From the IMG/VR virus record IMGVR_UViG_3300035703_000200, positions 1 to 38,804 of that record: a DNA stretch of 38,804 nucleotides. One strand, given 5' to 3'. Shown here one piece after another: positions 3,137 to 25,684 of this stretch. Each line of letters starts with the position of its first letter. Positions within the stretch are counted from its first letter, which is position 1. The notes beneath the pieces were generated by a model. The model was not told where the DNA came from, searched no databases, and saw only the letters and a program-made list of their open reading frames with translations. Origin of the DNA: a virus. A program made the position numbers and the translations under genes.

Positions 3137-4695
3137 TGGCGATTTTCGGTATTGGGCGTACCAACGCGTTGCGTAAGCAACTGCAGGAGACGCAGGAGAA
3201 GAACCTGTACCTGAAGCGTGCGTATGCGGCTGCGCAGAACAACAGGCTGACTTCTGACTGGGTGAGCCAGGCCACCTCGGCTGATAGTGAGATTCGTGGC
3301 AGCATCAGGATGTTGCGCAACCGCGCACGTCAGCTTGTTCGCGACTCGGACTTTGCCAAGGCTGCATTGCGAGCCGTACGCAATAACGTCGTCGGCACCG
3401 GCATCAGGATGCAAGCGCAGGTGCGGATGCAACGCGGTGGGCGCCTCGCTGATGAGATCAATCGCCGCATCGAGGATGAGTGGGACCGCTGGACCTCAGC
3501 AAAGCGTTGTCATGCAGGCGGCAAGCTGAGCTGGTACGACATCCAGCGTCTCTGCATCACGTCGATGCTTGAGTCCGGTGAAGTGTTCATCCGCTTCGTC
3601 CGTCAACCGTTTGGCAACAGCAGGATCCCGCTGGGACTGGAGATCATCGAGTCTGACCTGCTGGACGATGACTTCAGTGGCGTCGAGCGCAATGGCAACG
3701 AGGTGCGCATGGGCATTGAGATCGACAAGTGGGGGCGCCCTGTGGCTTATCACTTCTTCGATTACCACCCCGGCGATTATCAGTTCTCGTATGCGCAGAA
3801 GGCTGCCAAACGCCGCATTAGGATTCCCGCTGAAGACATCCTGCACCTGTACAGCATTGAGCGTCCTGGTCAGACACGTGGCGTGAGTGCATTCGCCTCG
3901 GCGATCATGCGCCTGCGTAATCTGAGCGGGTACGAAGAAGCCGAAATCGTTGCAGCACGTGCAAGCTCATCGATGATGGCCTTCGTCAAAACCCCCGATC
4001 AGGAGCTTTTTGAGGATGGAACTTTCGATCAGGATTCAGTCCTCGATTTCTCTCCTGGAAGCATTCGACGATTGGCTCCTGGTGAAGAGATGCAATTCTT
4101 CACGCCCAATCGCCCCGACGATGCATTTACTCCTTTTGTGCAGCAGATGCTCCGTGCTGTGGCTGCTGGGGTTGGTTGTAGTTACACGCAAGTGTCAAGC
4201 GATTTTTCGCAGAGCAACTACAGCTCTTCAAGGCTGGAACTGCTCGAGACAAGGACGCACTACAAGACGCTGCAGCAGTATTTGATCGAGTCGCTGTGCG
4301 AGGAAGTGTACGAAAAGTGGCTTGAGATGGCCGTCATGGCCGGTGTTCTGGATCTGCCGAACTACGACAGCAATCCTGAGCGTTACGAAGAGGCCAAGTG
4401 GATCGCCCCTGCCGCACAGTTTGTCGACCCGCAGAAAGAGGCTGCAGCGTACAAGGAGCTGATCCGCTCAGGAATCATGACCCTGTCGCAAGTGATTGCC
4501 TTGCACGGCGGTGATTTCGAGGATCAGATGCGTCAGCGGCAGCATGAACTGGCGGTTGCTGATGAGCTTGGCATCGTGCTTGATACTGATCCTTCACAGG
4601 TGTCAAACAACGGTGTGTCGCAGCCTGTTCCTGTTCCTCCCACTGAACATCCGTTACAACATGAAGAGGAACCTGAACTTGAGGACATCGACTGA
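3136..4695 (+). CDS. Portal protein, lambda family
   Basis: A 519-residue protein of the lambda gpB portal family, directly after the gpW-like gene. Recognisable segments include ADSEIRGSIRMLRNRARQLV, the GEVFIRFVRQ strand region, LEIIESDLL, and RPGQTRGVSAFASAIMRLRN near residue 250. It would form the dodecameric ring at the capsid vertex that holds the motor and later the tail. It overlaps both neighbours by one base. The acidic, proline-rich tail ends in EEPELEDID. Nothing suggests damage. Confidence 0.93.
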   Translation: MAIFGIGRTNALRKQLQETQEKNLYLKRAYAAAQNNRLTSDWVSQATSADSEIRGSIRMLRNRARQLVRDSDFAKAALRAVRNNVVGTGIRMQAQVRMQRGGRLADEINRRIEDEWDRWTSAKRCHAGGKLSWYDIQRLCITSMLESGEVFIRFVRQPFGNSRIPLGLEIIESDLLDDDFSGVERNGNEVRMGIEIDKWGRPVAYHFFDYHPGDYQFSYAQKAAKRRIRIPAEDILHLYSIERPGQTRGVSAFASAIMRLRNLSGYEEAEIVAARASSSMMAFVKTPDQELFEDGTFDQDSVLDFSPGSIRRLAPGEEMQFFTPNRPDDAFTPFVQQMLRAVAAGVGCSYTQVSSDFSQSNYSSSRLELLETRTHYKTLQQYLIESLCEEVYEKWLEMAVMAGVLDLPNYDSNPERYEEAKWIAPAAQFVDPQKEAAAYKELIRSGIMTLSQVIALHGGDFEDQMRQRQHELAVADELGIVLDTDPSQVSNNGVSQPVPVPPTEHPLQHEEEPELEDID

Positions 4696-7346
4696 TGGCA
4701 AAGGTTGGGGACAAGACAATTGATCTGACGCCCACCGAGGGCATGAAATCTGAAGCTCGTCGTTATCGCGAGTGGAAAAAAGATGGACGCCCCGGTGGCA
4801 CTAATGTTGCTGCTACACGTGCCAGTCAGATCCTGTCTGGCAATGAGCTGAGTCCTGACACTGTCGTGACGATGGCGGCATGGTTCGCCCGCCACGAGGT
4901 GGATAAGAAGGGCAAAGGGTTCAGGCCTGACGGTGAGGGCTATCCTTCGCCAGGTCGCGTAGCATGGGCGGCATGGGGTGGCGATTCAGGTCAATCGTGG
5001 AGCACCATGAAATCCAAAGCCATCAAAAAAGCACGGGAGCGTTCCATGGAACCCATCGTTGACGGTCGTCCTTATCCCAATGAGCATGCTGCTCGCCTGA
5101 CTGATCCTGATCAGTACGATTCGATCCGCCGTGTCAATGATGACTTTGGCGCTGGCATCGATGCGATCTATGGCATCAAGGATGGCACTTCTGAGCTGCA
5201 GGCGATTCGGTTTGATGCAGAGCGCTTCACACCGGCTGAAGCTCGTGAATGGCTGAGCGATCACGACTTTGACCCGATGATGTTTGAAGAAGCAACCGGC
5301 GAGCGCAGTAAAGATCGTGCTGCTCCTGATGCGCTGAAGGTGGGCGACTTTGTCGAATGGGATTCCTCGGGCGGCACTGCTCGCGGAAAGATTGAGCACA
5401 TCATGCGTGAAGGTGTACTTGGAGTTCCTGATTCTTCGTTTAGCATTAATGCATCCGAAGAAGATCCTGCTGCTTTGATTAGAGTTTACCGCCGCAATGA
5501 TGGTGACTACGAAGAGACCGAAACTCTTGTGGGTCACAAGTTCTCCGAACTGCGGAAGATTGCTGCGCTGCGATTCTTTGAAGGTGAAACGCTGAAGCGT
5601 TCGCTGAGCACCGAGTTTCGCTCAGAAGAAGAAGGCCGCATGCTTGAGTTCCCGTTCGCCAGCGAAGCGCCGGTTGAGCGGTACTACGGCACTGAGATCT
5701 TGAAGATGGATGAGAAATCCATGGATCTCAGCCGCTTGAACGATGGCGCACCGCTGCTGTACCAGCATGATGCCGACCGCATTGTTGGCGTTGTCCAGCG
5801 GGCATACATCAAAAACAAGCGTGCATACGCCCGTGTCAAGTTGGCCAACAACGAGCTTGGCCGCGAAATGCAGGAGCTGATTAAGGATGGAATCATCCGC
5901 AACGTCAGCTTCGGCTACAAGATCAATTCGATGGAAGCCGATGAGTCCACTTCACCAGTGACTTATCGGGCGACTAATTTCCAACCATTCGAAATCAGTC
6001 TTGTCACGGTGCCTGCTGACGCTTCAGTGGGCATCGGCCGCGCCTTCTATCATAATGAAGGCGTCGAAACGGCCTCAGCCGTTCAACAAACCACAAACGG
6101 AGTTACAACCGTGGATCAAACCCTCAATATTGAGGCTATCCGCGCTGAGGCCGCTCAGGCCAAGGCAAAGGAAATGGCCGACATGATCGCTCTTGGTCAG
6201 CGCACCAAGAACGTTGACATGGCTCAGGAGTTCATCGCGAATTCCCGCAGCCTGGACGAGCTTCGCTCTGCCCTTCTGGAGAAGATGGGTGTTGAGGAGA
6301 AGCCTCTGAACCCGAAGGATGCCGAAATCGGCATGTCGGAGAAGGAGCGCCGTGATTTCTCCTTCATCCGCGCCATCAACGCTCTGGCTCACCCGAACAG
6401 CCAGGAAGCTCAGCGTGCTGCTGGTTTCGAACTTGAAGTCAGCCGTGCTGCTCAGCAGAAGAGCGGTAAGGAAGCCCGTGGCATCCTGATCCCTGCTGAC
6501 GTGCTGGGTTATGGCCGCCGTGACCTGACCGTGGGTTCGGCTTCTGCTGGTGGTGATCTGGTTGCCACCGATCTGATGAGCGACAGCTTCATCGATCTGC
6601 TGCGCAAGGCTCTGGTGCTGCAAACCGCTGGCGCCACTGTCATGACCGGCCTGCAAGGCATGGTTGCTCTGCCCCGTCAAAGCGGTGGTGCGACTGTGTA
6701 CCACGTGGCTGAATCCGGTTCGATCACCGAATCGCAGCTCACCGTGGATCAGGTGACGATGCAGCCCCGCACCATCGGTGCCCTGACCGATTACAGCCGC
6801 CGTCTGCTGCTGCAGTCGAGCATCGACATCGAGAACCTGGTCCGTCGTGACCTGGCTCAGCAGATCGCCATCGAGGTCGAGAACCAAGCCATCAACGGTA
6901 GTGGTAGCGCCTCGTACCCGCTGGGCTTCCTGAACGTGACCGGCATCAACACCGAGTCCGGTTACACCACGTTCGCTGACTACGTGAACGCGGAAGCTGC
7001 TCTGAGCACCGACAACGCCCTGCTGGGCAGCCTCGGCTACATGATGAATTCCGCCCTGCGTGGAACTCTGAAGACCACCGAGAAGTCGGCCACCGGCACC
7101 AACGCCAACTTCATCTACGAAGCCGACAACACCATCAACGGTTACCCGGCTTACGTGTCCAACTCCATGCCGAACAACACTGCGGTGTTCGCTAACTTCA
7201 GCGACATCCTGATCGGCTTCTGGAGCGGTCTGGACATCATGGTTGATCCTTACACCGGTTCCGCTTCCGGCACCGTGCGTGTGGTGGCCATGCAGGACTA
7301 CGACGTGGCCATCCGTCATCCTGAGTCCATCTGCAAGCTGTCCTGA
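4695..7346 (+). CDS. Prohead protease fused to HK97-type major capsid protein, with extra N-terminal domains
   Basis: One 883-residue frame encodes several units. Residues 1-115 and 118-202 are two small domains of a kind seen in phage prohead proteins. Residues 213-290 (KVGDFVEWDSSGGTARGKIE) resemble the hypervirulence-associated TUDOR domain. Residues 295-450 are an S78-type prohead protease: LLYQHD gives His358, IRNVSFGYKI gives Ser405, and FEISLVTVPADASVG follows. From about 540 onward is the HK97-fold capsid protein (LVATDLMSDSFIDLLRKALV; later GYMMNSALRGTLKTTE). The protease probably removes itself and the N-terminal delta region during assembly. Codon use becomes visibly more biased in the capsid part, as for a highly made protein. 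Confidence 0.92.
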   Translation: MAKVGDKTIDLTPTEGMKSEARRYREWKKDGRPGGTNVAATRASQILSGNELSPDTVVTMAAWFARHEVDKKGKGFRPDGEGYPSPGRVAWAAWGGDSGQSWSTMKSKAIKKARERSMEPIVDGRPYPNEHAARLTDPDQYDSIRRVNDDFGAGIDAIYGIKDGTSELQAIRFDAERFTPAEAREWLSDHDFDPMMFEEATGERSKDRAAPDALKVGDFVEWDSSGGTARGKIEHIMREGVLGVPDSSFSINASEEDPAALIRVYRRNDGDYEETETLVGHKFSELRKIAALRFFEGETLKRSLSTEFRSEEEGRMLEFPFASEAPVERYYGTEILKMDEKSMDLSRLNDGAPLLYQHDADRIVGVVQRAYIKNKRAYARVKLANNELGREMQELIKDGIIRNVSFGYKINSMEADESTSPVTYRATNFQPFEISLVTVPADASVGIGRAFYHNEGVETASAVQQTTNGVTTVDQTLNIEAIRAEAAQAKAKEMADMIALGQRTKNVDMAQEFIANSRSLDELRSALLEKMGVEEKPLNPKDAEIGMSEKERRDFSFIRAINALAHPNSQEAQRAAGFELEVSRAAQQKSGKEARGILIPADVLGYGRRDLTVGSASAGGDLVATDLMSDSFIDLLRKALVLQTAGATVMTGLQGMVALPRQSGGATVYHVAESGSITESQLTVDQVTMQPRTIGALTDYSRRLLLQSSIDIENLVRRDLAQQIAIEVENQAINGSGSASYPLGFLNVTGINTESGYTTFADYVNAEAALSTDNALLGSLGYMMNSALRGTLKTTEKSATGTNANFIYEADNTINGYPAYVSNSMPNNTAVFANFSDILIGFWSGLDIMVDPYTGSASGTVRVVAMQDYDVAIRHPESICKLS

Positions 7347-14546: not shown

Positions 14547-14579
14547 GGTACTATGGAAGGGAGCTGCACTATCTTAATT

Positions 14580-15221
14580 ATGGCCAAGGGGAAAGAGCCC
14601 GTCGACATCACGGGGCGTCGTTATGGCTTACTTGTGGCACTAAGGCCTACCGCTGAGAGGCGTTGGAACAGTGTCGTTTGGGAATGTGTTTGCGATTGTG
14701 GCGGCAAAAAACTTGCTCCTGCAGGATCTTTGCGTAGAGGAACTCCCAAATCATGCGGATGTGCTGCACAAGTTCCGCCTCCAATCAACATAAAGCATGG
14801 CATGGCCGGGCATCCCCTTTACAAAACATGGGAGGGAATGATGGCTAGGTGCTACAACAAAGGCAACAAGGATTTTTACTTGTACGGCGCCAGAGGCATT
14901 CAAGTCTGCGAGCGTTGGCACGATCCAAGAAACTTTGTCGAGGACTTGAATCCTCGCCCCGCTGGGTGCACTCTTGACCGCATTGATAATTCGCGTGGTT
15001 ACAGCCCGGACAACTGCCGATGGGCTACGGCCATGCAGCAGCACGCCAACAAGCGAAGCAACAAGTTGTTCACTATCAACGGAGAGACACTGCACCAGCG
15101 CGAATGGTGCAGGCGCTACAACATCCCAGTGAGTACATTTACGAATAGGCTGAATGAAGGGCTTGAGCCGTTGACTGCGCTCACGATGCCTTCCCGTCGT
15201 CCCAGGCGTGTCGCCAAATGA
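14580..15221 (+). CDS. Free-standing HNH homing-type endonuclease
   Basis: A 213-residue protein. The N-terminus has VDITGRRYGLLVAL and CVCDCGG...CGC, a zinc-binding unit common before HNH nucleases. The nuclease core is LDRIDNSRGYSPDNCRWAT near residue 140, preceded by YGARGIQVCERW. The C-terminus (INGETLHQREWCRRYNIPVS) looks like a NUMOD/AP2-type DNA-binding repeat. It interrupts the otherwise gapless gpL-gpK order, as expected of a mobile gene. Start 14580 fits the family; an ATG at 14553 is also in frame. Confidence 0.8.
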   Translation: MAKGKEPVDITGRRYGLLVALRPTAERRWNSVVWECVCDCGGKKLAPAGSLRRGTPKSCGCAAQVPPPINIKHGMAGHPLYKTWEGMMARCYNKGNKDFYLYGARGIQVCERWHDPRNFVEDLNPRPAGCTLDRIDNSRGYSPDNCRWATAMQQHANKRSNKLFTINGETLHQREWCRRYNIPVSTFTNRLNEGLEPLTALTMPSRRPRRVAK

Positions 15222-15931
15222 AACTGACCGACGCGCTCAAGGCTGACATCCTGGCGCACGCGCAGGCCGAGGATCCCCGCGAGTGCTGCGGCCTGATCCA
15301 TGTGGTCAAAGGCCGGCGCCGCTACTACCCGTGCCGCAACATCGCCGCCACACCAGACGAGCACTTCATCCTGGACCCGGCGGATTACGCAGCAGCTGAA
15401 GATGCCGGCGAGATCGTGGCCGTGGTCCACAGTCACCCGGTGACGCAGCCGGTGCCATCAGCGGCGGATCAGATCGGCTGCAACAACAGCGGCCTGCCGT
15501 GGGTGATCGTCAACCCCAAGACCGAAGCCTGGGGCGGCTGCGAGCCGGCAGCGTTTGAGCTGCCATACGTCGGCCGCGAGTTTGTGTTCGGCGTGGTGGA
15601 CTGCTACTCGCTGGTGCGGGACTGGTATCAGCGCGAGTGGGGCTTGATGCTGGCGAACTTTGACCGGCGTGATCGGTTCTGGGAGCGAGGCGAGAACCTG
15701 TATCTCGACAGCTACCGCTCGCAGGGCTTCAGACAGGTGCCGTTCGAGGAACTGCAGTACGGCGACGCGATCCTGATGCAACTGTTCTCAGGGCTGCCCA
15801 ACCATGCGGCGATCTATTTGGGCGATCAGCAAATCCTGCATCACGTGCAGGGGCGATTGAGTAGCCGCGACGTGTATGGCGGTTACTATGTCAAGAGCAC
15901 TGCCCTGGTCTTGCGGCATGAAAGTCGTTAA
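15218..15931 (+). CDS. Tail tip protein gpK: JAMM peptidase plus NlpC/P60
   Basis: A 237-residue protein with two enzyme domains, as in lambda gpK. Residues 1-105 are a JAB/MPN domain: Glu22 in DPRECCG, and the metal motif HSHPVTQPVPSAAD at 71-84. Residues 115-237 are NlpC/P60: catalytic Cys129 in VVDCYSLVRDWY and His196 in NHAAIYLG. It probably processes a tail-tip partner and opens host peptidoglycan at entry. It overlaps the HNH gene by 4 bp and gpI by 14 bp. Confidence 0.9.
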   Translation: MKLTDALKADILAHAQAEDPRECCGLIHVVKGRRRYYPCRNIAATPDEHFILDPADYAAAEDAGEIVAVVHSHPVTQPVPSAADQIGCNNSGLPWVIVNPKTEAWGGCEPAAFELPYVGREFVFGVVDCYSLVRDWYQREWGLMLANFDRRDRFWERGENLYLDSYRSQGFRQVPFEELQYGDAILMQLFSGLPNHAAIYLGDQQILHHVQGRLSSRDVYGGYYVKSTALVLRHESR

Positions 15932-16595
15932 GGTCTACGGCGCACTCCGCAAGCGACTCGGCCAGTGCCGGTTCGAGTTTGAGGTGGACACGCCCGCGCA
16001 GGCGATCAAGGCGCTGTGCGTCAATTTCCCCGGCCTGGAGCGCTGGCTGATCGACTCAGAGCAGACCGGCATGGGCTTCCGAGTCACCGTCGGCAAGGAG
16101 CGGATCACGCCCGAGGATGCAAGCGTGGCCGTGCTGCCATGGTCTGAACGGGATGTGTTCAGCATTGCGCCTGTGGTGGCTGGTGCTGGTCGAGGCGCAG
16201 GGCAGATCTTCGCTGGCATCGGTCTGGTGGCACTGGCGATCGTGTTGGGCCCGGCAGCCGGCGGATTTCTCGGCCTGGGCATGGGGCTTTCTGGCGTGAC
16301 TGCGGGTGCGGCTGCCGGTAGCGCGGCCATGGGCATCATCGGCGGCGGCCTTGCAAGCGCAATCGGCCTTGCTGGTGCCAGCTTGATCATCGGTGGTGTT
16401 GCCAGCATGATCTCGCCCCAGGCATCGATCAGTGGCCTGCAGCGCGGCAAAGAAGCCGCCCGGCTGGAGTCGTTCAGCTTCAGCGGCATTGTCAACACCA
16501 GCCAGCAGGGGATGCCGGTGCCGATCGTCTACGGCCGCGCCTTCGTTGGTTCGGCTGTCCTGTCCAGCGGCCTTGATGTGGCGCAACTGCGATGA
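15918..16595 (+). CDS. Tail assembly protein gpI-like
   Basis: A 225-residue protein starting inside the end of gpK. MKVVKVYGALRKRLGQCRFE and the ubiquitin-like first 90 residues are typical of gpI. Residues about 95-175 are a long Gly/Ala hydrophobic region with likely membrane-inserting helices. The end, SFSGIVNTSQQGMPVPIVYG, then GSAVLSSGLDV, is the common gpI C-terminus. An in-frame ATG at 15876 exists but falls deep inside gpK. It is required for tail-tip assembly in lambda and is processed from virions. Confidence 0.85.
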   Translation: MKVVKVYGALRKRLGQCRFEFEVDTPAQAIKALCVNFPGLERWLIDSEQTGMGFRVTVGKERITPEDASVAVLPWSERDVFSIAPVVAGAGRGAGQIFAGIGLVALAIVLGPAAGGFLGLGMGLSGVTAGAAAGSAAMGIIGGGLASAIGLAGASLIIGGVASMISPQASISGLQRGKEAARLESFSFSGIVNTSQQGMPVPIVYGRAFVGSAVLSSGLDVAQLR

Positions 16596-19500
16596 CACAG
16601 CTTCAAGGTTCCGGCGGTGGCGGTGGTGGCGGTGGATGCTTCCTGGGGCACACGCTGGTGCGCACGCCCAACGGGCAGCGCCGCATTGATGAGCTGCAGG
16701 CCGGCGATCAAGTCCTGAGCTTTGACGACAAGGGCACGCTGCACGAGGCGACGATCCTGAAGGTGCATGAGCACCCGAATGAGCGTGTCTTCCGCTACCA
16801 GCTCTGGGGCGGCGCATCACTGGATGCAACCCCGAATCACTGGGTCCTGAACCAGTTCAATGCCTTCGTCGCAATCGGCAGCCTTGGCGCTGATGACTGC
16901 CTGGTGGACGAGAACAACCACCTGCGTCCAATCGTCGGCCGCGAAGAGTTGCCCGCTGGCACGGTCTACAACCTGACCGTCGAAGGGCACCACACCTTCA
17001 TTGCTGGCGGCATCCGCGTTCACAACGCCGGCCTTGGCGTGCTGCAAGGCGCAGGCGGTGGCGGTGGCGGCAAAGGTGGCGGCGGCACGACCCACGTCCC
17101 ATCGGAGGCTGATGACAGCCTGCAGTCAGTCCAATTTGCCAGCGTCCTTGACCTAATCAGCGAAGGCGAGATCGACGGCATTGAAGACGGCGTGCAGGGC
17201 ATCTACCTGGATGGGACGCCCGTTCAAAGCAGCAGCGGAATCGACAACTTCACGGGCTACACCGTCGTCACCCGCACTGGCACGCAGGCGCAGAGCTACA
17301 TCCCCAACACCAACGGCATCGAGTCAGAGCAGGCCGTCAACGTCGAGATCACGGCTGCTGCATCTGTCACCCGGCAGATCACTGACTCGGATGTGGACCG
17401 CGCCCGCATCACGGTGCAGGTGCCGGCGCTGCAGATCATCGAGGATGACGGCGACATCATCGGCCATGAGGTCAGCATCCGCTGCAGGGTGCAGTACAAC
17501 GGCGGCGGCTACACGACCGTCTTCGAGGACACGATCAGTGGCAAGACCACCAACGCTTACCAGCGCGACTACATCATCAGCCTGACGGGTGCGTTCCCTG
17601 TTGACATCAGGCTGGAGCGCATCAGCGCCGATGAGACCAGTGCCCGCCGGCAGAACCGGACTTTCTGGTTCAGCTACACCGAGATTATCGACGAGAAGTT
17701 TAGGTATCCCAACAGCGCACTGGCATTTCTGCGCTTTGACAGCCGCCAGTTCAAAGGCATCCCAGCCCGCAAGTACCTGGTGCGTGGCATCAAGGTGCAA
17801 CTGCCCAGCAATGCCACGGTTGACACGACCACCTACCTCGGCCGCGTTACCTACAGCGGCGTCTGGGATGGCACCTTCGGCGCTGCTACATGGACCAACG
17901 ACCCGGCCTGGTGCCTGTGGGACCTGCTGACGAACACCCGCTACGGCGCCAGCATCCCGGCCAGCAGCCTGGACCGTTACGACTTCTACGCGATCAGCCA
18001 GTACTGCAACGCGCTGGTCAGCAACGGACGCGGCGGGCTGGAGCCCCGGTTCAGTTGCAACATGCTGATCAACAGCAGAGATGAGGTTTACAACGTCATC
18101 CAAGAGTTCGTCGCCCTGTTCCGTGGCATTGCCTACTACGGCGCTGGCGCCATGGTGGTGCTGCAGGACAAGCCATCGGATCCGCAATACCTGCTGACCC
18201 CGGCCAACGTCGTTGATGGGCTGTTCAACTACAGCGGCTCATCGCAGAAGGCACGGCACACCACAGCGACCGTTGCTTACCAGGATTACGACAACCTGGG
18301 CGAAGTGTCTTACGAGTACGTCGAGGATGCGTCAGCCGTTGCCAAGTACGGCATCATCAACAAGGACATCAAGGCAGTCGGCTGCTACTCGCAAGGGCAG
18401 GCGCACCGTGCTGGCAAGTGGGCGCTGCTGTCCGAGCAGAACCTGACCGAGACCGTCACGTTCTCAGTGTCGATCGACTCGGGCATTGTGCTGCGTCCTG
18501 GCATGGTGATCGACGTGGCCGATCCGGTCAAGGCTGGCAGCAGGCGCGGCGGCCGCATTGCAGCAGCAACAACGACCACAATTACAGCCGATAACGCGAT
18601 TGGCACTGTTGGGACATTCCCAACCATTTCAGTGCTTTTGCCGACCGGCTTGGTTGAGAAGCGCACGATTAGCGCCATTAGCGGCAACGTTGTCACAGTC
18701 AGCAGCGCTTTCAGTGAAGCGCCCAACCCACAAAGTATCTGGGTTATTGAAGACACCGGCTTGCGGACGCAGCAGTTCCGTGTTGTCAGCGTGGCCGAGG
18801 CCGAGGATGGCATCTACGGCGTCACCGCACTGGCCTACAACAGCAGCATCTACGCCGCGATCGAGTCAGACATCAAGCTGCAGGCGCGGGACATCTCCAA
18901 CCTGTCTGCTATTCCGCTGCCCCCTACCGGCCTGACCGGCACGGAGCACTTATACACCGACGGCCAGAACGTCCGCACTGCGTTCGAGCTGAGCTGGGTG
19001 CCGCCGACGCAACTGGTGCAGTCCTACCGGGTGATCTACCGGCTCGGCAACAACAACTGGTCGCAGATCGACACCAACAGCCCCAGCACCCGCATTGAGG
19101 GCTTGGACGCTGGCACGCTGCAAGTCCGGGTGCAATCGATCAACAGCCTCGGCGGCGTCAGCACTCCGGCTACGGCTACCTTCACGCTGGTCGGCAAGAC
19201 CGCCCCGCCGGGCAACGTCCAGAACCTGACCATCGAACCGATCAGCGCCAACAGCGCCCGCCTGCGCTGGACTGCAACTGTTGACCTAGACGTCCGCGTT
19301 GCCGGCCGAGTCCACATCCGTCATACAAGCCTGACCGATGGCACCGGCACCTGGAGCAACAGCGTTGACCTGATCCCTGCCATCGCCGGCTACAACACCG
19401 AAGCCATCGTGCCACTGGTGGAGGGCGAAATCCTGGTCAAGTTCGAGGATGACGGTGGCCGGCAGAGCCCAACAGAAACCAGCGTGATCGTTGACTTCCC

Positions 19501-20326
19501 GGATGCCGTGGGGCAACTGCTGGTGCAGACCCGCCGTGAGGACACAGATACGCCGCCATTCCAAGGCGCCAAGACGGACGTCTTCTACAGCGAAGACTTT
19601 GGCGGTTTGGTGCTGGATGGCGATGAAACCCTTGATGGAATCACGGACTTCGATCTGATCACGACGTTTGATTTCTTGGGTGATACCCAACTGCAAGGCG
19701 AGTATGCCTTTGCCAATACGCTTGATCTAGGTGGCGTGTTTTCGCTTGACCTCAAGCGTTATTTCGTCACCACTGGGTTCTTCCCCAGCACATTGGTGGA
19801 CAGCCGTACCGGACTGGTTGACGACTGGGCAGATTGGGATGGCGGCGTGATCGATCAGGTCAACGCCAAGCTCTTGGTCCGTCGCACTTCAGACAATCCC
19901 AGCGGCTCGCCCACCTGGACAAGCTGGCAGGAGTTCGTTAACGGCACCTTCCTGGGACGCGGTTTTCAGTTCAAGTCTCAACTCACCAGCAACGACCCAG
20001 CCGAAAACATTGTGGTTGAGCAGCTTGGGTATGACGGCACCTTCCAGCGCAGGACAGAGCAGTCAGTTGGTGCTGTCACCAGCGGCGCTGGCACCTACTC
20101 GGTCGCCTTCGACAAAGCGTTCTTCACCGGCACGGCGAGCCTGGGCGGCACCAACGCCTACCTGCCCAGCATCGGCATCGTCGCGCAGAACCTGGCGACC
20201 GGCGATTACTTCAACGTGACCAACGTCACCAGCACAGGCTTTGACGTGACCTTCAGAAACAGCGCTGGCACTGCAGTAAGCAGGAACTTTTTATGGACTG
20301 CGGTGGGATTTGGCAAGGGCGCTTAA
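16592..20326 (+). CDS. Central tail tip protein gpJ with N-terminal Hint domain
   Basis: A 1244-residue host-recognition protein. Residues 1-15 are a short Gly-rich leader, 16-145 a Hint (intein-like) domain, and a second Gly-rich linker leads to the normal gpJ start near residue 160 (SLQSVQFASVLDLISEGEID, comparable with the lambda gpJ N-terminus). The middle has the gpJ core (RTFWFSYTEIIDEKFRYPNS). Fibronectin-type III-like repeats lie at roughly 770-960, and the last 250 residues are probably the receptor-binding part. ATGA overlap couples it to gpI. Confidence 0.92.
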   Translation: MTQLQGSGGGGGGGGCFLGHTLVRTPNGQRRIDELQAGDQVLSFDDKGTLHEATILKVHEHPNERVFRYQLWGGASLDATPNHWVLNQFNAFVAIGSLGADDCLVDENNHLRPIVGREELPAGTVYNLTVEGHHTFIAGGIRVHNAGLGVLQGAGGGGGGKGGGGTTHVPSEADDSLQSVQFASVLDLISEGEIDGIEDGVQGIYLDGTPVQSSSGIDNFTGYTVVTRTGTQAQSYIPNTNGIESEQAVNVEITAAASVTRQITDSDVDRARITVQVPALQIIEDDGDIIGHEVSIRCRVQYNGGGYTTVFEDTISGKTTNAYQRDYIISLTGAFPVDIRLERISADETSARRQNRTFWFSYTEIIDEKFRYPNSALAFLRFDSRQFKGIPARKYLVRGIKVQLPSNATVDTTTYLGRVTYSGVWDGTFGAATWTNDPAWCLWDLLTNTRYGASIPASSLDRYDFYAISQYCNALVSNGRGGLEPRFSCNMLINSRDEVYNVIQEFVALFRGIAYYGAGAMVVLQDKPSDPQYLLTPANVVDGLFNYSGSSQKARHTTATVAYQDYDNLGEVSYEYVEDASAVAKYGIINKDIKAVGCYSQGQAHRAGKWALLSEQNLTETVTFSVSIDSGIVLRPGMVIDVADPVKAGSRRGGRIAAATTTTITADNAIGTVGTFPTISVLLPTGLVEKRTISAISGNVVTVSSAFSEAPNPQSIWVIEDTGLRTQQFRVVSVAEAEDGIYGVTALAYNSSIYAAIESDIKLQARDISNLSAIPLPPTGLTGTEHLYTDGQNVRTAFELSWVPPTQLVQSYRVIYRLGNNNWSQIDTNSPSTRIEGLDAGTLQVRVQSINSLGGVSTPATATFTLVGKTAPPGNVQNLTIEPISANSARLRWTATVDLDVRVAGRVHIRHTSLTDGTGTWSNSVDLIPAIAGYNTEAIVPLVEGEILVKFEDDGGRQSPTETSVIVDFPDAVGQLLVQTRREDTDTPPFQGAKTDVFYSEDFGGLVLDGDETLDGITDFDLITTFDFLGDTQLQGEYAFANTLDLGGVFSLDLKRYFVTTGFFPSTLVDSRTGLVDDWADWDGGVIDQVNAKLLVRRTSDNPSGSPTWTSWQEFVNGTFLGRGFQFKSQLTSNDPAENIVVEQLGYDGTFQRRTEQSVGAVTSGAGTYSVAFDKAFFTGTASLGGTNAYLPSIGIVAQNLATGDYFNVTNVTSTGFDVTFRNSAGTAVSRNFLWTAVGFGKGA
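16637..17026 (+). other. Hint/bacterial intein-like domain inside gpJ
   Basis: This 130-residue segment runs from Cys16 to Asn145 of gpJ. It starts CFLGHTLVRTPNGQRRIDEL (block A), has ATPNHWVL (block B, TxxH) and ends GHHTFIAGGIRVHN. The next residue is Ala, not Cys, Ser or Thr, so full splicing by the classical route is not expected; N- or C-terminal cleavage as in BIL domains is more likely. No homing endonuclease is inserted. It is flanked by poly-glycine on both sides. Confidence 0.85.
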
Positions 20327-20329
20327 AGT

Positions 20330-20352
20330 AGGAGCAAAATGGCCTAGCTATG
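20330..20352 (+). promoter_or_regulatory. Leader with two-codon upstream ORF before the fibre gene
   Basis: AGGAG at 20330-20334 lies 4 bases before ATG GCC TAG (20339-20347), a Met-Ala-stop mini-ORF, and 15 bases before the fibre gene ATG at 20350. The best ribosome site therefore serves the mini-ORF; the fibre gene might be reached by reinitiation 2 bases beyond its stop. Confidence 0.5.
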
Positions 20353-22170
20353 GCTCAACACGATTACGTCATCGCTAACGGCACTGGTGCAGCCGTCCGA
20401 TCTGACCTGAACAATGCGCTGGCCGCGATCGTCAGCCAGAACAGCGGCGCCACTGAGCCGGCGACCATGTACGCCTATCAGTTCTGGGCGGACACGACCA
20501 CCGGCCTGCTCAAGTTGCGCAACGCAGCCAACAACGCGTGGATCACGCTCCGACAGCTTGACGGCGACTTCGACACCGTGCCGGTTGAGAACGGCACCGC
20601 TTCCGCGCCATCGATCTACTTCCGCGCCAGTGGCACCGACACCGGCTTTTACAGCAGCGGCACTGACGCGCTGGATTTCACCACTGCGGGCACCCGTCGC
20701 CTTGGGATCTCAAGCAGCGGCGACATCACCGTTTACGGCGGCAACACCACGTTGAACGCTCAAGGCGACTTGAGGTTTGCCGACTCTGACAGCAGCAACT
20801 GGGTAGCTTTTCAGGGACCTGCAACCGTCAGCAGCAACGTCACATGGACGCTGCCATCAGCCGACGGCACTAGTGGTCAGGTGCTTAGCACCAACGGGTC
20901 TGGCACCCTGAGCTGGGCGACCGCCAGCGGCACCAGCGACAAGATTAGCGAAGGCAACACCGAGGCCGAGGTTGTTGATACCGGCGTTGATGGCCACTTC
21001 AAGGTCACCACAGAAGGCACTGAGAGACTGCGTGTCACGGCGGCAGGGCTTGTAGGGATTGGCACTAATTCGCCCCTTGCAAAGTTAGTCGTATCAAACG
21101 GTGGAGCAGATGGATACGAAGTAAATCCAGGCAGCGGTGGTGTTGAACTTATTTCTTACAACCGCAGTTCAAGCGCGTATGGGTCAACTACTTATGATTC
21201 CAGCGCCCACGCTTTTAGGATTTCGGGAACAGAACGCGCCCGCATCGACAGCTCGGGACGCCTGTTAGTTGGCACGTCTAGTGTGCGTAGCAATATTTAT
21301 AAAGATGCGTTCACCAATATCCCTACAGCTCAGTTTGAGACAGCTACCAATACTTACAACAATGGTTTAAGCCTTCTCAACTATTCGGCTAATGGGTATG
21401 GACCTGTGTTGTCCTTAGGGACTTCATTCTCAAATACACCAGGTACTAATACTCTTCTTGATAATGGTGGAGACATGGGATGGATAAATTTCACTGGAAA
21501 CGATGGAACTAATTTTAGAACAGGCGCAAGTATTGGTGCACTTGTAGATGGAGCATCAGGCTCTGGTGACATGCCGGGCAGGCTCATTTTTTCGACGACC
21601 GCCGACGGAGCGAGCAGCCCGACGGAGCGGATGAGGATTAGCCAAGCAGGAGTTGGTTCTCTCGTTTCTACCATTGACGGGTTCTACATTTCTTCTGTCC
21701 AAGGTGCAGGCACTGCGTACAGATTTCTGGAGTGCAGGTACGGCGGCACGGCAGGAACCGCTTACTCTGGAACAACTTCGTTCCAAGTGTATACAAATGG
21801 TAACGTTCAAAACACAAACAATAGCTATGCGGGCATTTCAGACGCCAAGTTAAAAGAAAACATCGTTGACGCTGGCTCGCAGTGGAACGATCTCAAGGCG
21901 TTTCAGGTGCGCAAGTTCAATTTTAAGGAAGGGCAGACCCACACCCAAATTGGCCTGATCGCCCAAGAGGTTGAACTCGTCTCCCCCGGGCTTGTCACTG
22001 AATCCCCCGACCGCGACGCAGACGGCAACGACCTTGGCACCGTCACTAAATCAGTGAATTACTCGGTGCTTTACATGAAGGCAGTAAAGGCACTGCAGGA
22101 AGCAATGGAGCGGATCGAGCAACTGGAAACGGAGATGGCCGAAGTGAAGGCTCAACTCCAAGCCTCGTAA
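20350..22170 (+). CDS. Tail fibre with C-terminal S74 self-cleaving chaperone
   Basis: A 606-residue protein. The N-terminus (ANGTGAAVRSDLNNALAAIV) is a virion-attachment type seen in cyanophage fibres. The middle is beta-rich with repeated ERxRI turns (GTERLRVTAAGLVGIG, GTERARIDSSGRLLVG) like trimeric fibres. Residues 497-606 are an intramolecular chaperone of peptidase family S74: SDAKLKENI with Ser497 at the expected cleavage point, IGLIAQEV, and a terminal coiled coil. The chaperone would fold the trimer and then cut itself off. Confidence 0.9.
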   Translation: MAQHDYVIANGTGAAVRSDLNNALAAIVSQNSGATEPATMYAYQFWADTTTGLLKLRNAANNAWITLRQLDGDFDTVPVENGTASAPSIYFRASGTDTGFYSSGTDALDFTTAGTRRLGISSSGDITVYGGNTTLNAQGDLRFADSDSSNWVAFQGPATVSSNVTWTLPSADGTSGQVLSTNGSGTLSWATASGTSDKISEGNTEAEVVDTGVDGHFKVTTEGTERLRVTAAGLVGIGTNSPLAKLVVSNGGADGYEVNPGSGGVELISYNRSSSAYGSTTYDSSAHAFRISGTERARIDSSGRLLVGTSSVRSNIYKDAFTNIPTAQFETATNTYNNGLSLLNYSANGYGPVLSLGTSFSNTPGTNTLLDNGGDMGWINFTGNDGTNFRTGASIGALVDGASGSGDMPGRLIFSTTADGASSPTERMRISQAGVGSLVSTIDGFYISSVQGAGTAYRFLECRYGGTAGTAYSGTTSFQVYTNGNVQNTNNSYAGISDAKLKENIVDAGSQWNDLKAFQVRKFNFKEGQTHTQIGLIAQEVELVSPGLVTESPDRDADGNDLGTVTKSVNYSVLYMKAVKALQEAMERIEQLETEMAEVKAQLQAS

Positions 22171-24391: not shown

Positions 24392-24684
24392 GCGACAATA
24401 CGACCTGGCTGTGGCGTTATGACAGCAGGGACTGGCGGCATCGCATGCAGCGTGCTGCTCAAGATCACAAGTTCCAAGCGACCTTAGCGCCACGGCTTGA
24501 TCGTGAAATCGAGCGTGTCAACAAGATTATTGACCTAGAAGAAGAGCGGTCAAAGCGCCGGCCTGTGATCAAAGAAGAACCGATCACACCAGAGCAAACA
24601 GGTGACAGCCGCCTTCTGGGTGGACCGATGTCAATCTCATCCCCTTGGAACGATGACGACCCAGAACCGCCTGAAGCTGGTTGA
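24385..24684 (+). CDS. Coding frame without canonical start, possible -1 extension of the membrane peptide
   Basis: The frame gives ALSDNTTWLWRYDSRDWRHR followed by a charged helix (LDREIERVNKIIDLEEERSK) and an acidic Pro-rich tail. The first ATG in frame is at 24445, which would drop the aromatic segment that looks coding. From 24307, where the frame opens, to 24445 there is no ATG, GTG or TTG. So either a -1 shift from 24254 makes a 143-residue fusion, or translation starts at 24445 to give 79 residues. Function unknown; it overlaps the endolysin start by 32 bp. Confidence 0.55.
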   Translation, partial: ALSDNTTWLWRYDSRDWRHRMQRAAQDHKFQATLAPRLDREIERVNKIIDLEEERSKRRPVIKEEPITPEQTGDSRLLGGPMSISSPWNDDDPEPPEAG

Positions 24685-25684
24685 CCTGTTCAAGTATTAC
24701 AAGGTCTTGCCGCATCAAACAGCGGCGATCTTTGAACTGGAAGAAGCCTTGTTGAAGGTTGCGCCTGATTTGTTGAATAGGGATCAGGCTTGGTTCAAGA
24801 CGTGGTCACAGGCTGGCAAACAAGACGTATTTGAGAACAATTGGCAGGGCGTGTTTGATGCGGCCAAGAAAGCTGGGGCGAAGTTCCCTGAGCTTGTTGC
24901 TGCGCAGTGGGCGCTTGAGTCTGGATATGGCAAGCACGTATCAGGCGAGAACAACTTCTTCGGTCTGAAAGGTGTCGGGACAAATCGCAACACAAAGGAA
25001 TACATCAACGGTCGCTGGATCACGATTCAAGATTCGTTTCTTGATTTCCCTGATCTTGAGACGTGTGTGTTCTATTTGGTGGAGCGTTGGTACAAAGATT
25101 TCAACGTGCATCAAGGCTGCAATCATGCTGCTGATCGCGAAGATGCTGCACGCTGGTTGGTGCGTGAAGGGTATGCAACAGATCCTGCTTACGCTGACAA
25201 GCTGATCAAACTGATGAACCTGCATGTGCAGGGCGTCAAGGCTGTGCAGGCTGTACAGGCCGTACAGTTCACCCCTAGCAAGCCATTTGACTACAAGATC
25301 ACACCCAATGTGACCTACGGCGAGATTGCGTTGAACAGCGAAAACAGGCGATTCATTGCACAGCATCAATGCGAGACTGCTGTTGTGTTGTGTCAGTACC
25401 TTGAAAAAGTACGGAAACACTTTGGCAACAAGCCAATCATCATCACAAGTGGTTACAGGCCACCTGCTGTGAACAATGCTGTTGGTGGTGCTCGCAACTC
25501 TGAACACCTCTACGACAAGCCTAATACAGGCGCTGTGGACTTCTGGATCAAAGACGTAGACATCTACAAGGTGCAGGAGTACTGTGACCAGACCTGGCCG
25601 TACAGCCTTGGCTACGGGGCAAAGAAAGGCTTCGTGCATCTTGGAATGCGACCAGGCAAACCACGCATCCGCTGGGATTATTGA
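24653..25684 (+). CDS. Endolysin: glucosaminidase plus M15 peptidase
   Basis: A 343-residue cell-wall hydrolase. Residues about 60-190 are a glucosaminidase of the FlgJ type, with catalytic Glu89 in ALESGYG and the NNFFGLKG motif. Residues about 205-335 are an M15A metallopeptidase, with zinc ligands His285 (NSEHLYD), Asp296 (GAVDFW) and His329 (FVHLG). It would cut both glycan strands and stem peptides. There is no signal peptide, so a holin is needed. Start 24653 follows TTGGAA; a GTG at 24602 is also in frame. Confidence 0.92.
   Translation: MTTQNRLKLVDLFKYYKVLPHQTAAIFELEEALLKVAPDLLNRDQAWFKTWSQAGKQDVFENNWQGVFDAAKKAGAKFPELVAAQWALESGYGKHVSGENNFFGLKGVGTNRNTKEYINGRWITIQDSFLDFPDLETCVFYLVERWYKDFNVHQGCNHAADREDAARWLVREGYATDPAYADKLIKLMNLHVQGVKAVQAVQAVQFTPSKPFDYKITPNVTYGEIALNSENRRFIAQHQCETAVVLCQYLEKVRKHFGNKPIIITSGYRPPAVNNAVGGARNSEHLYDKPNTGAVDFWIKDVDIYKVQEYCDQTWPYSLGYGAKKGFVHLGMRPGKPRIRWDY

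Follow-up and report, generated by a model that had tools for sequence, protein, structure and literature searches.

A candidate self-excising Hint domain without a +1 nucleophile in the N-terminal leader of a gpJ-like phage tail tip protein

Among described systems, the A-type BIL domains come closest to the locus analysed here. They are endonuclease-free, about 130-150 aa long, and reside in non-conserved, variable bacterial proteins. According to reviews (PMC5874633), they begin with Cys1, end in His-Asn, lack a +1 nucleophile, occupy variable, low-complexity sites, and can splice or undergo C-terminal cleavage; ligation by BIL domains without nucleophilic side chains is cited in PMC7664689. 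Class 1 mini-inteins, such as gp41-1 and the Mtu RecA mini-intein, have blocks A, B, F, and G, are inserted precisely at conserved active sites, have empty-site homologues, and are followed by Cys, Ser, or Thr at +1. Inteins of phages include those in the TerL proteins of phiCbK and Cluster J and in Vibrio helicases, for which intein-less relatives are known (PMC3556154, PMC3706429); these terminase and helicase inteins are ~340 aa long and carry an endonuclease. The PT-HINT domains of polymorphic toxins also have the Hint fold.

We analysed a 38,804-nt stretch of viral DNA (IMG/VR record IMGVR_UViG_3300035703_000200, positions 1 to 38,804), hereafter the window. Its gene at 16592..20326 (+) encodes a Hint-bearing, gpJ-like central tail tip protein of 1,244 aa, recognized by Pfam and by a PHROG profile match to phrog_31 ('central tail fiber J', E 1.4e-250) and containing an FNIII-A_GpJ domain (9.1e-40). 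The gpJ body (17062..20326, +), with FNIII-A_GpJ, Phage-tail_3, and fn3 domains, is alike in Hint-bearing and Hint-less relatives. The phrog_31 match places the start of this body at residues 158-163, in agreement with the initial annotation, which had the gpJ-like sequence begin directly after a Hint domain. Upstream lie gpL-, gpK- (JAB plus NlpC/P60), and gpI-like genes, and an annotated feature with domain and PHROG profile matches occupies 15218..15931 (+). The gpI-like tail assembly gene (15876..16595, +; phrog_32, 1.1e-45) directly precedes gpJ, and its stop is joined to the gpJ-like start by an ATGA overlap. Both the body domains and the L-K-I-J gene order identify the protein as a member of the lambda gpJ family. 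A free-standing HNH endonuclease gene (14553-15221, +; phrog_374/3377) is located between the gpL- and gpK-like genes; it is present in few relatives only, independently of the Hint domain. Elsewhere in the window, the prohead protease (Peptidase_S78) and the major capsid protein form a single 883-residue ORF (4695-7346, +) with a TUDOR-like N-terminal part, and an endolysin (24602-25684, +) combines glucosaminidase and M15 peptidase domains. The tail fibre gene adjoining gpJ (20350-22170, +) ends in a Peptidase_S74 intramolecular chaperone, a second predicted self-cleaving domain.

The Hint domain comprises 130 residues of gpJ, C16 to N145 (16637..17026, +), exactly as first annotated, and is supported by profile, PDB, and structure matches. 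The PT-HINT model (PF07591; 2.1e-06) and NCBIfam intein_Cterm (21.1 bits) matched above their cut-offs, whereas Pfam Hint (6.6e-07) reached 29.6 bits against a cut-off of 29.7 and intein_Nterm fell slightly under its own. Sequence matches in the PDB included the Mtu RecA mini-intein (1.7e-08), gp41-1 (3.8e-07), and the C. thermocellum BIL domain (1.4e-05). An AlphaFold model built from an alignment of 39 relatives had a pLDDT of ~97 over residues ~20-140, with the glycine-rich flanks unstructured. Foldseek placed two BIL domains, one of Tetrahymena and one of C. thermocellum (2lwy; TM 0.86 by target, rmsd 1.6 A), at the top together with the gp41-1 intein (TM 0.89-0.90). The fold and the presence of blocks A, B, F, and G assign the domain to the Hint/intein superfamily. 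Its catalytic residues in the window are Cys1 (C16), block B T80-P-N-H83, block F H134, and the terminal H144-N145, and it contains no endonuclease insert.

The N-extein, or native gpJ leader, is MTQLQGSGGGGGGGG (16592..16636, +), with a conserved [ILV]-x-G-[AS]-G motif. After the domain, positions +1 to +4 read Ala-Gly-Leu-Gly (17027..17038, +), of which the Gly at +2 is invariant in the family; the initial annotation was thus correct in placing Ala after the His-Asn end. In the C-extein spacer AGLGVLQGAGGGGGGKGGGGTTHV (17027..17098, +), the leader motif recurs. At the DNA level, a 31-nt direct repeat precedes the domain (16600..16630, +) and recurs, 84% identical, after it (17041..17071, +). 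The two copies are spaced by 441 nt, or 147 codons, so that a deletion between them would be in frame, providing a simple route to in-frame Hint loss. A GTG codon after the domain (17039) could act as an internal start in the window, but this alternative was set aside, as nothing start-like stands at this point in most other lineages.

Conservation across the family was assessed for 141 distinct flanked Hint domains aligned without requiring catalytic residues. All are 129-135 residues long and endonuclease-free, and none of the 141 departs from Cys1, T65, H68, H119, H129, or N130 (domain numbering), so that each has the Cys at position 1, penultimate His, and terminal Asn of class 1 inteins. 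The residue at +1 is Ala in 114, Gly in 19, Lys in 7, and Thr in one, which leaves 140/141, the window included, without the Cys, Ser, or Thr that class 1 inteins have at this position. Gly is always present at +2 and nearly always at -1. The single domain with Thr (HN|TGSGEG; L186:3914-4480) could, from its sequence, splice by ordinary class 1 chemistry, and it offers a natural counterpart against which to set the Ala, Gly, and Lys versions. In a wider set of 27 distinct K-type domains, chosen by a pattern that requires Cys1 and the end motif so that conservation is partly by construction, Cys1, the terminal Asn, and Lys at +1 hold throughout; one subgroup ends in Ser-Asn and another has no block-F His. 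The predicted machinery for both junctions is kept, and the nucleophile for trans-esterification is absent.

The domain resembles the A-type BIL domains in its fold, its length of about 130 aa, its Cys1, and its His-Asn end without a +1 nucleophile or endonuclease, and it sits in a glycine-rich leader of variable length. In contrast to the described BIL domains, it belongs to one conserved virion protein, where it occupies one fixed position, it has Hint-less alleles in near-identical phages, and its +1 residues include Lys. Precise insertion and empty-site homologues are shared with class 1 mini-inteins, from which it differs in having Ala, Gly, or Lys at +1 and a glycine-rich leader rather than a conserved active site as its location. 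Unlike the terminase and helicase inteins of phages, it is ~130 aa long and lies in a virion tail protein. The match to Pfam PF07591 is common to PT-HINTs.

A first query with the window Hint domain matched 369 virome contigs, and a broader second query matched at least 561, a lower bound; together with the catalytic residues kept in all 141 distinct flanked domains, this is well above what chance would give. The search for Hint domains at the same position in other gpJ proteins, proposed in the initial annotation, was borne out in all 80 of the contigs fetched, where the domain lies at the N-terminus of gpJ with a glycine tract on each side. Its length is exactly 130 aa in 75/81 loci, that is, in all that could be delimited by pattern. 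The same Hint-gpJ architecture was found in a cyanobacterial MAG contig (L082) and in an Oxalobacter contig (L083; Hint 44% identical, junction HN|GG), and the hosts thus include at least cyanobacteria (by MAG binning only) and a betaproteobacterium. Among cultured phages, no Hint-bearing gpJ was found in 50,697 records; a Proteus phage match (H114) turned out to be a helicase intein. Across ~800 genomes from both families with a match, the further hits within the L083 family were PT-HINT proteins of toxin-like type, unrelated to gpJ, in which the domain lies deep in a large protein and is mostly followed by Cys, whereas the gpJ Hint domain is at the extreme N-terminus. By the +1 residue, three groups are distinguished: A (AGLG, the type of the window), G (GGHRERYP-like), and K, the last in more distant gpJ proteins whose identity is confirmed by PHROG and Pfam matches. 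In the G-type proteins (L083, L169-L184), the domain is followed by a conserved peptide, GG[HFY]R[ED]R[YF]P. The Hint tree unites the A type in one clade and spreads the K types over several deep branches with one common insertion site. The deeply separated lineages L187, L223, L340, L345, L357, L382, and L393 all occupy this GAKGG|KGGG site, which suggests from the sequences that it was occupied repeatedly. A search of mostly open-access literature turned up no earlier description of a gpJ with a Hint domain; on that basis, its presence in this protein, the consistent lack of a +1 nucleophile, and the polymorphism of occupied and empty sites appear to be unreported.

Hint-less gpJ proteins with bodies ~98% identical to that of the window exist and start with MIEDLLLVQGAGGGGGGGGKGGGG; the start-codon context of the leader, with its ATGA overlap with gpI, is identical in these alleles and in the window. 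Because near-identical gpJ proteins are without the domain, the suggestion that it is a needed leader for tail-tip maturation is not upheld. Among 80 loci fetched by the gpJ body alone, 40 are Hint-bearing, 38 Hint-less, and two truncated; a second cyanophage gpJ clade has 32 Hint-bearing and 46 Hint-less members. A tree built from 84 gpJ bodies requires a minimum of 11 gains or losses of the domain on well-supported branches and 21 by parsimony, counts that may be inflated since the tree is blurred by likely recombination within gpJ. Synonymous divergence (pS) of the domain equals that of gpJ in the same pairs, indicating that the two are mostly co-inherited, and pN/pS among closer pairs is 0.07-0.10 for Hint and 0.06-0.07 for gpJ. 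Judged from these comparisons, the domain is old and constrained.

The K-type insertion is exact, with VPxIxGAKGG[Hint]KGGG in Hint-bearing and VPxIxGAKGGKGGG in Hint-less alleles, as expected of an intein with contiguous exteins in its Hint-less homologues; in the window type, the leader is duplicated. All 19 Hint-bearing K-type leaders have the motif, as do 17 of the 18 Hint-less ones. Its Pro, Ile, and Gly are fixed in the N-extein (pN 0.00-0.04 versus pS 0.43-0.72), with adjoining positions varying freely, and the P-x-I-x-G leader of Hint-less alleles shows the same pattern of purifying selection. This equal selection with or without the domain indicates that the leader is apparently kept in gpJ. 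In the A and G types, the IxG[AS]G motif occurs before the domain in 98/101 and after it in 100/101, and the two copies of one phage are more alike than copies of different phages.

In our assessment, the Hint domain probably, if with modest confidence, excises itself with ligation in the manner of A-type BIL domains, despite lacking a +1 nucleophile. The computed support consists of the fold, the invariant catalytic residues, the exact insertion site, the Hint-less alleles, the conserved N-extein, and purifying selection; from these we infer that the domain is reactive, that ligation outweighs cleavage, and that joining takes an aminolysis route. Splicing retains the leader and cleavage discards it, which favours excision with ligation over a throw-away leader: a discarded leader should drift, the K-type leader does not, and the simplest reading is that the ends are joined. 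Against this argument, N-extein conservation could stem from a role before processing, and the products of BIL domains are described as predominantly cleaved (PMC7664689), which counts against ligation. In the proposed mechanism, an endonuclease-free, intein-like domain with A-type BIL chemistry is lodged in the glycine-rich leader. After translation, the acyl group of Gly15 would pass to Cys16 and cyclisation of Asn145 would free the amine of Ala146, which, with no Cys, Ser, or Thr at +1, would attack the Gly15 thioester directly, a step that the flexible glycine flanks may aid; this would be a seldom-used variant of intein chemistry. The predicted products are leader-gpJ of ~119.4 kDa and a free Hint domain of 14.4 kDa, with some uncoupled cleavage likely beside ligation. 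The computed tryptic peptide of the ligated product is MTQLQGSGGGGGGGGAGLGVLQGAGGGGGGK, at 2456.18 Da or 2325.14 Da without Met.

The foremost rival, possible though clearly the less probable, is the self-cleaving leader of the initial annotation, in which Asn cyclisation cuts after Asn145, the leader-Hint part is released, and gpJ begins with AGLGVLQGAGGGG with no ligation. The non-nucleophilic +1 residue in 140/141 does make cleavage likelier, as first argued, but leaves room for splicing, since both outcomes have been reported for A-type BIL domains (PMC5874633). BIL domains often cleave (PMC7664689), and because the A/G-type IxGAGGG leader is duplicated after the domain, a cleaved gpJ would keep a native-like leader, which makes C-terminal cleavage a live rival for the window. 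The protein so cleaved would start AGLGVLQG, with a computed tryptic N-terminal peptide AGLGVLQGAGGGGGGK of 1254.67 Da. All catalytic residues are indeed present; yet Cys1 and the block-B T-x-x-H, which serve chemistry at the N-terminal junction and are unneeded for C-cleavage alone, are as invariant as the Asn, so that a cleavable leader is less supported. Moreover, the single K-type leader copy, located before the domain and under purifying selection, would be lost, and the Hint-less sister phages show the step to be dispensable.

Capture of the N-extein thioester by another amine or thiol (of a partner protein, another gpJ, or a small molecule), with Hedgehog-like transfer of the glycine-rich leader to another site, would account for invariant N-terminal chemistry beside a +1 residue that cannot trans-esterify. 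The neighbouring gpK and gpI carry JAB and ubiquitin-like domains, a pair once proposed to be a processing unit (PMC1779556). We regard this as improbable: no partner gene tracks the domain, with HNH unlinked and gpI/gpK present with or without Hint, and cis-splicing explains the exact K-type insertion more simply. Slightly less probable still is an uncut, structural or receptor-facing N-terminal domain, since a full catalytic set is not expected to be invariant in a purely structural role, although variable extensions are described as concentrating at the N-terminus of gpJ (PMC13243795). Mobilisation by the HNH gene 1.4 kb upstream, to which the patchy Hint presence and the repeated gains and losses might point, is very improbable given an HNH homologue in 5/90 Hint-bearing and 2/31 Hint-less relatives (Fisher p = 1), the equal pS of Hint and gpJ, and a domain of 129-135 aa with no insert.

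Phage inteins on record lie mostly in DNA-handling enzymes or terminases. Here, a Hint family is fixed at one site of gpJ, the receptor-engaging tail-tip protein, across many uncultured phages. A broader reading, which we hold to be doubtful, is that cis-splicing Hint domains without a +1 nucleophile, including those with Lys, are widespread at this one gpJ site in freshwater and marine phages, that their splicing or its failure serves as an assembly checkpoint, and that two gpJ proteoforms are kept as a balanced polymorphism. The family offers a natural domain set for testing whether and how a Hint domain splices without a +1 nucleophile. For annotators, the warning is that many gpJ proteins would have a mature N-terminus other than the one predicted from the gene.
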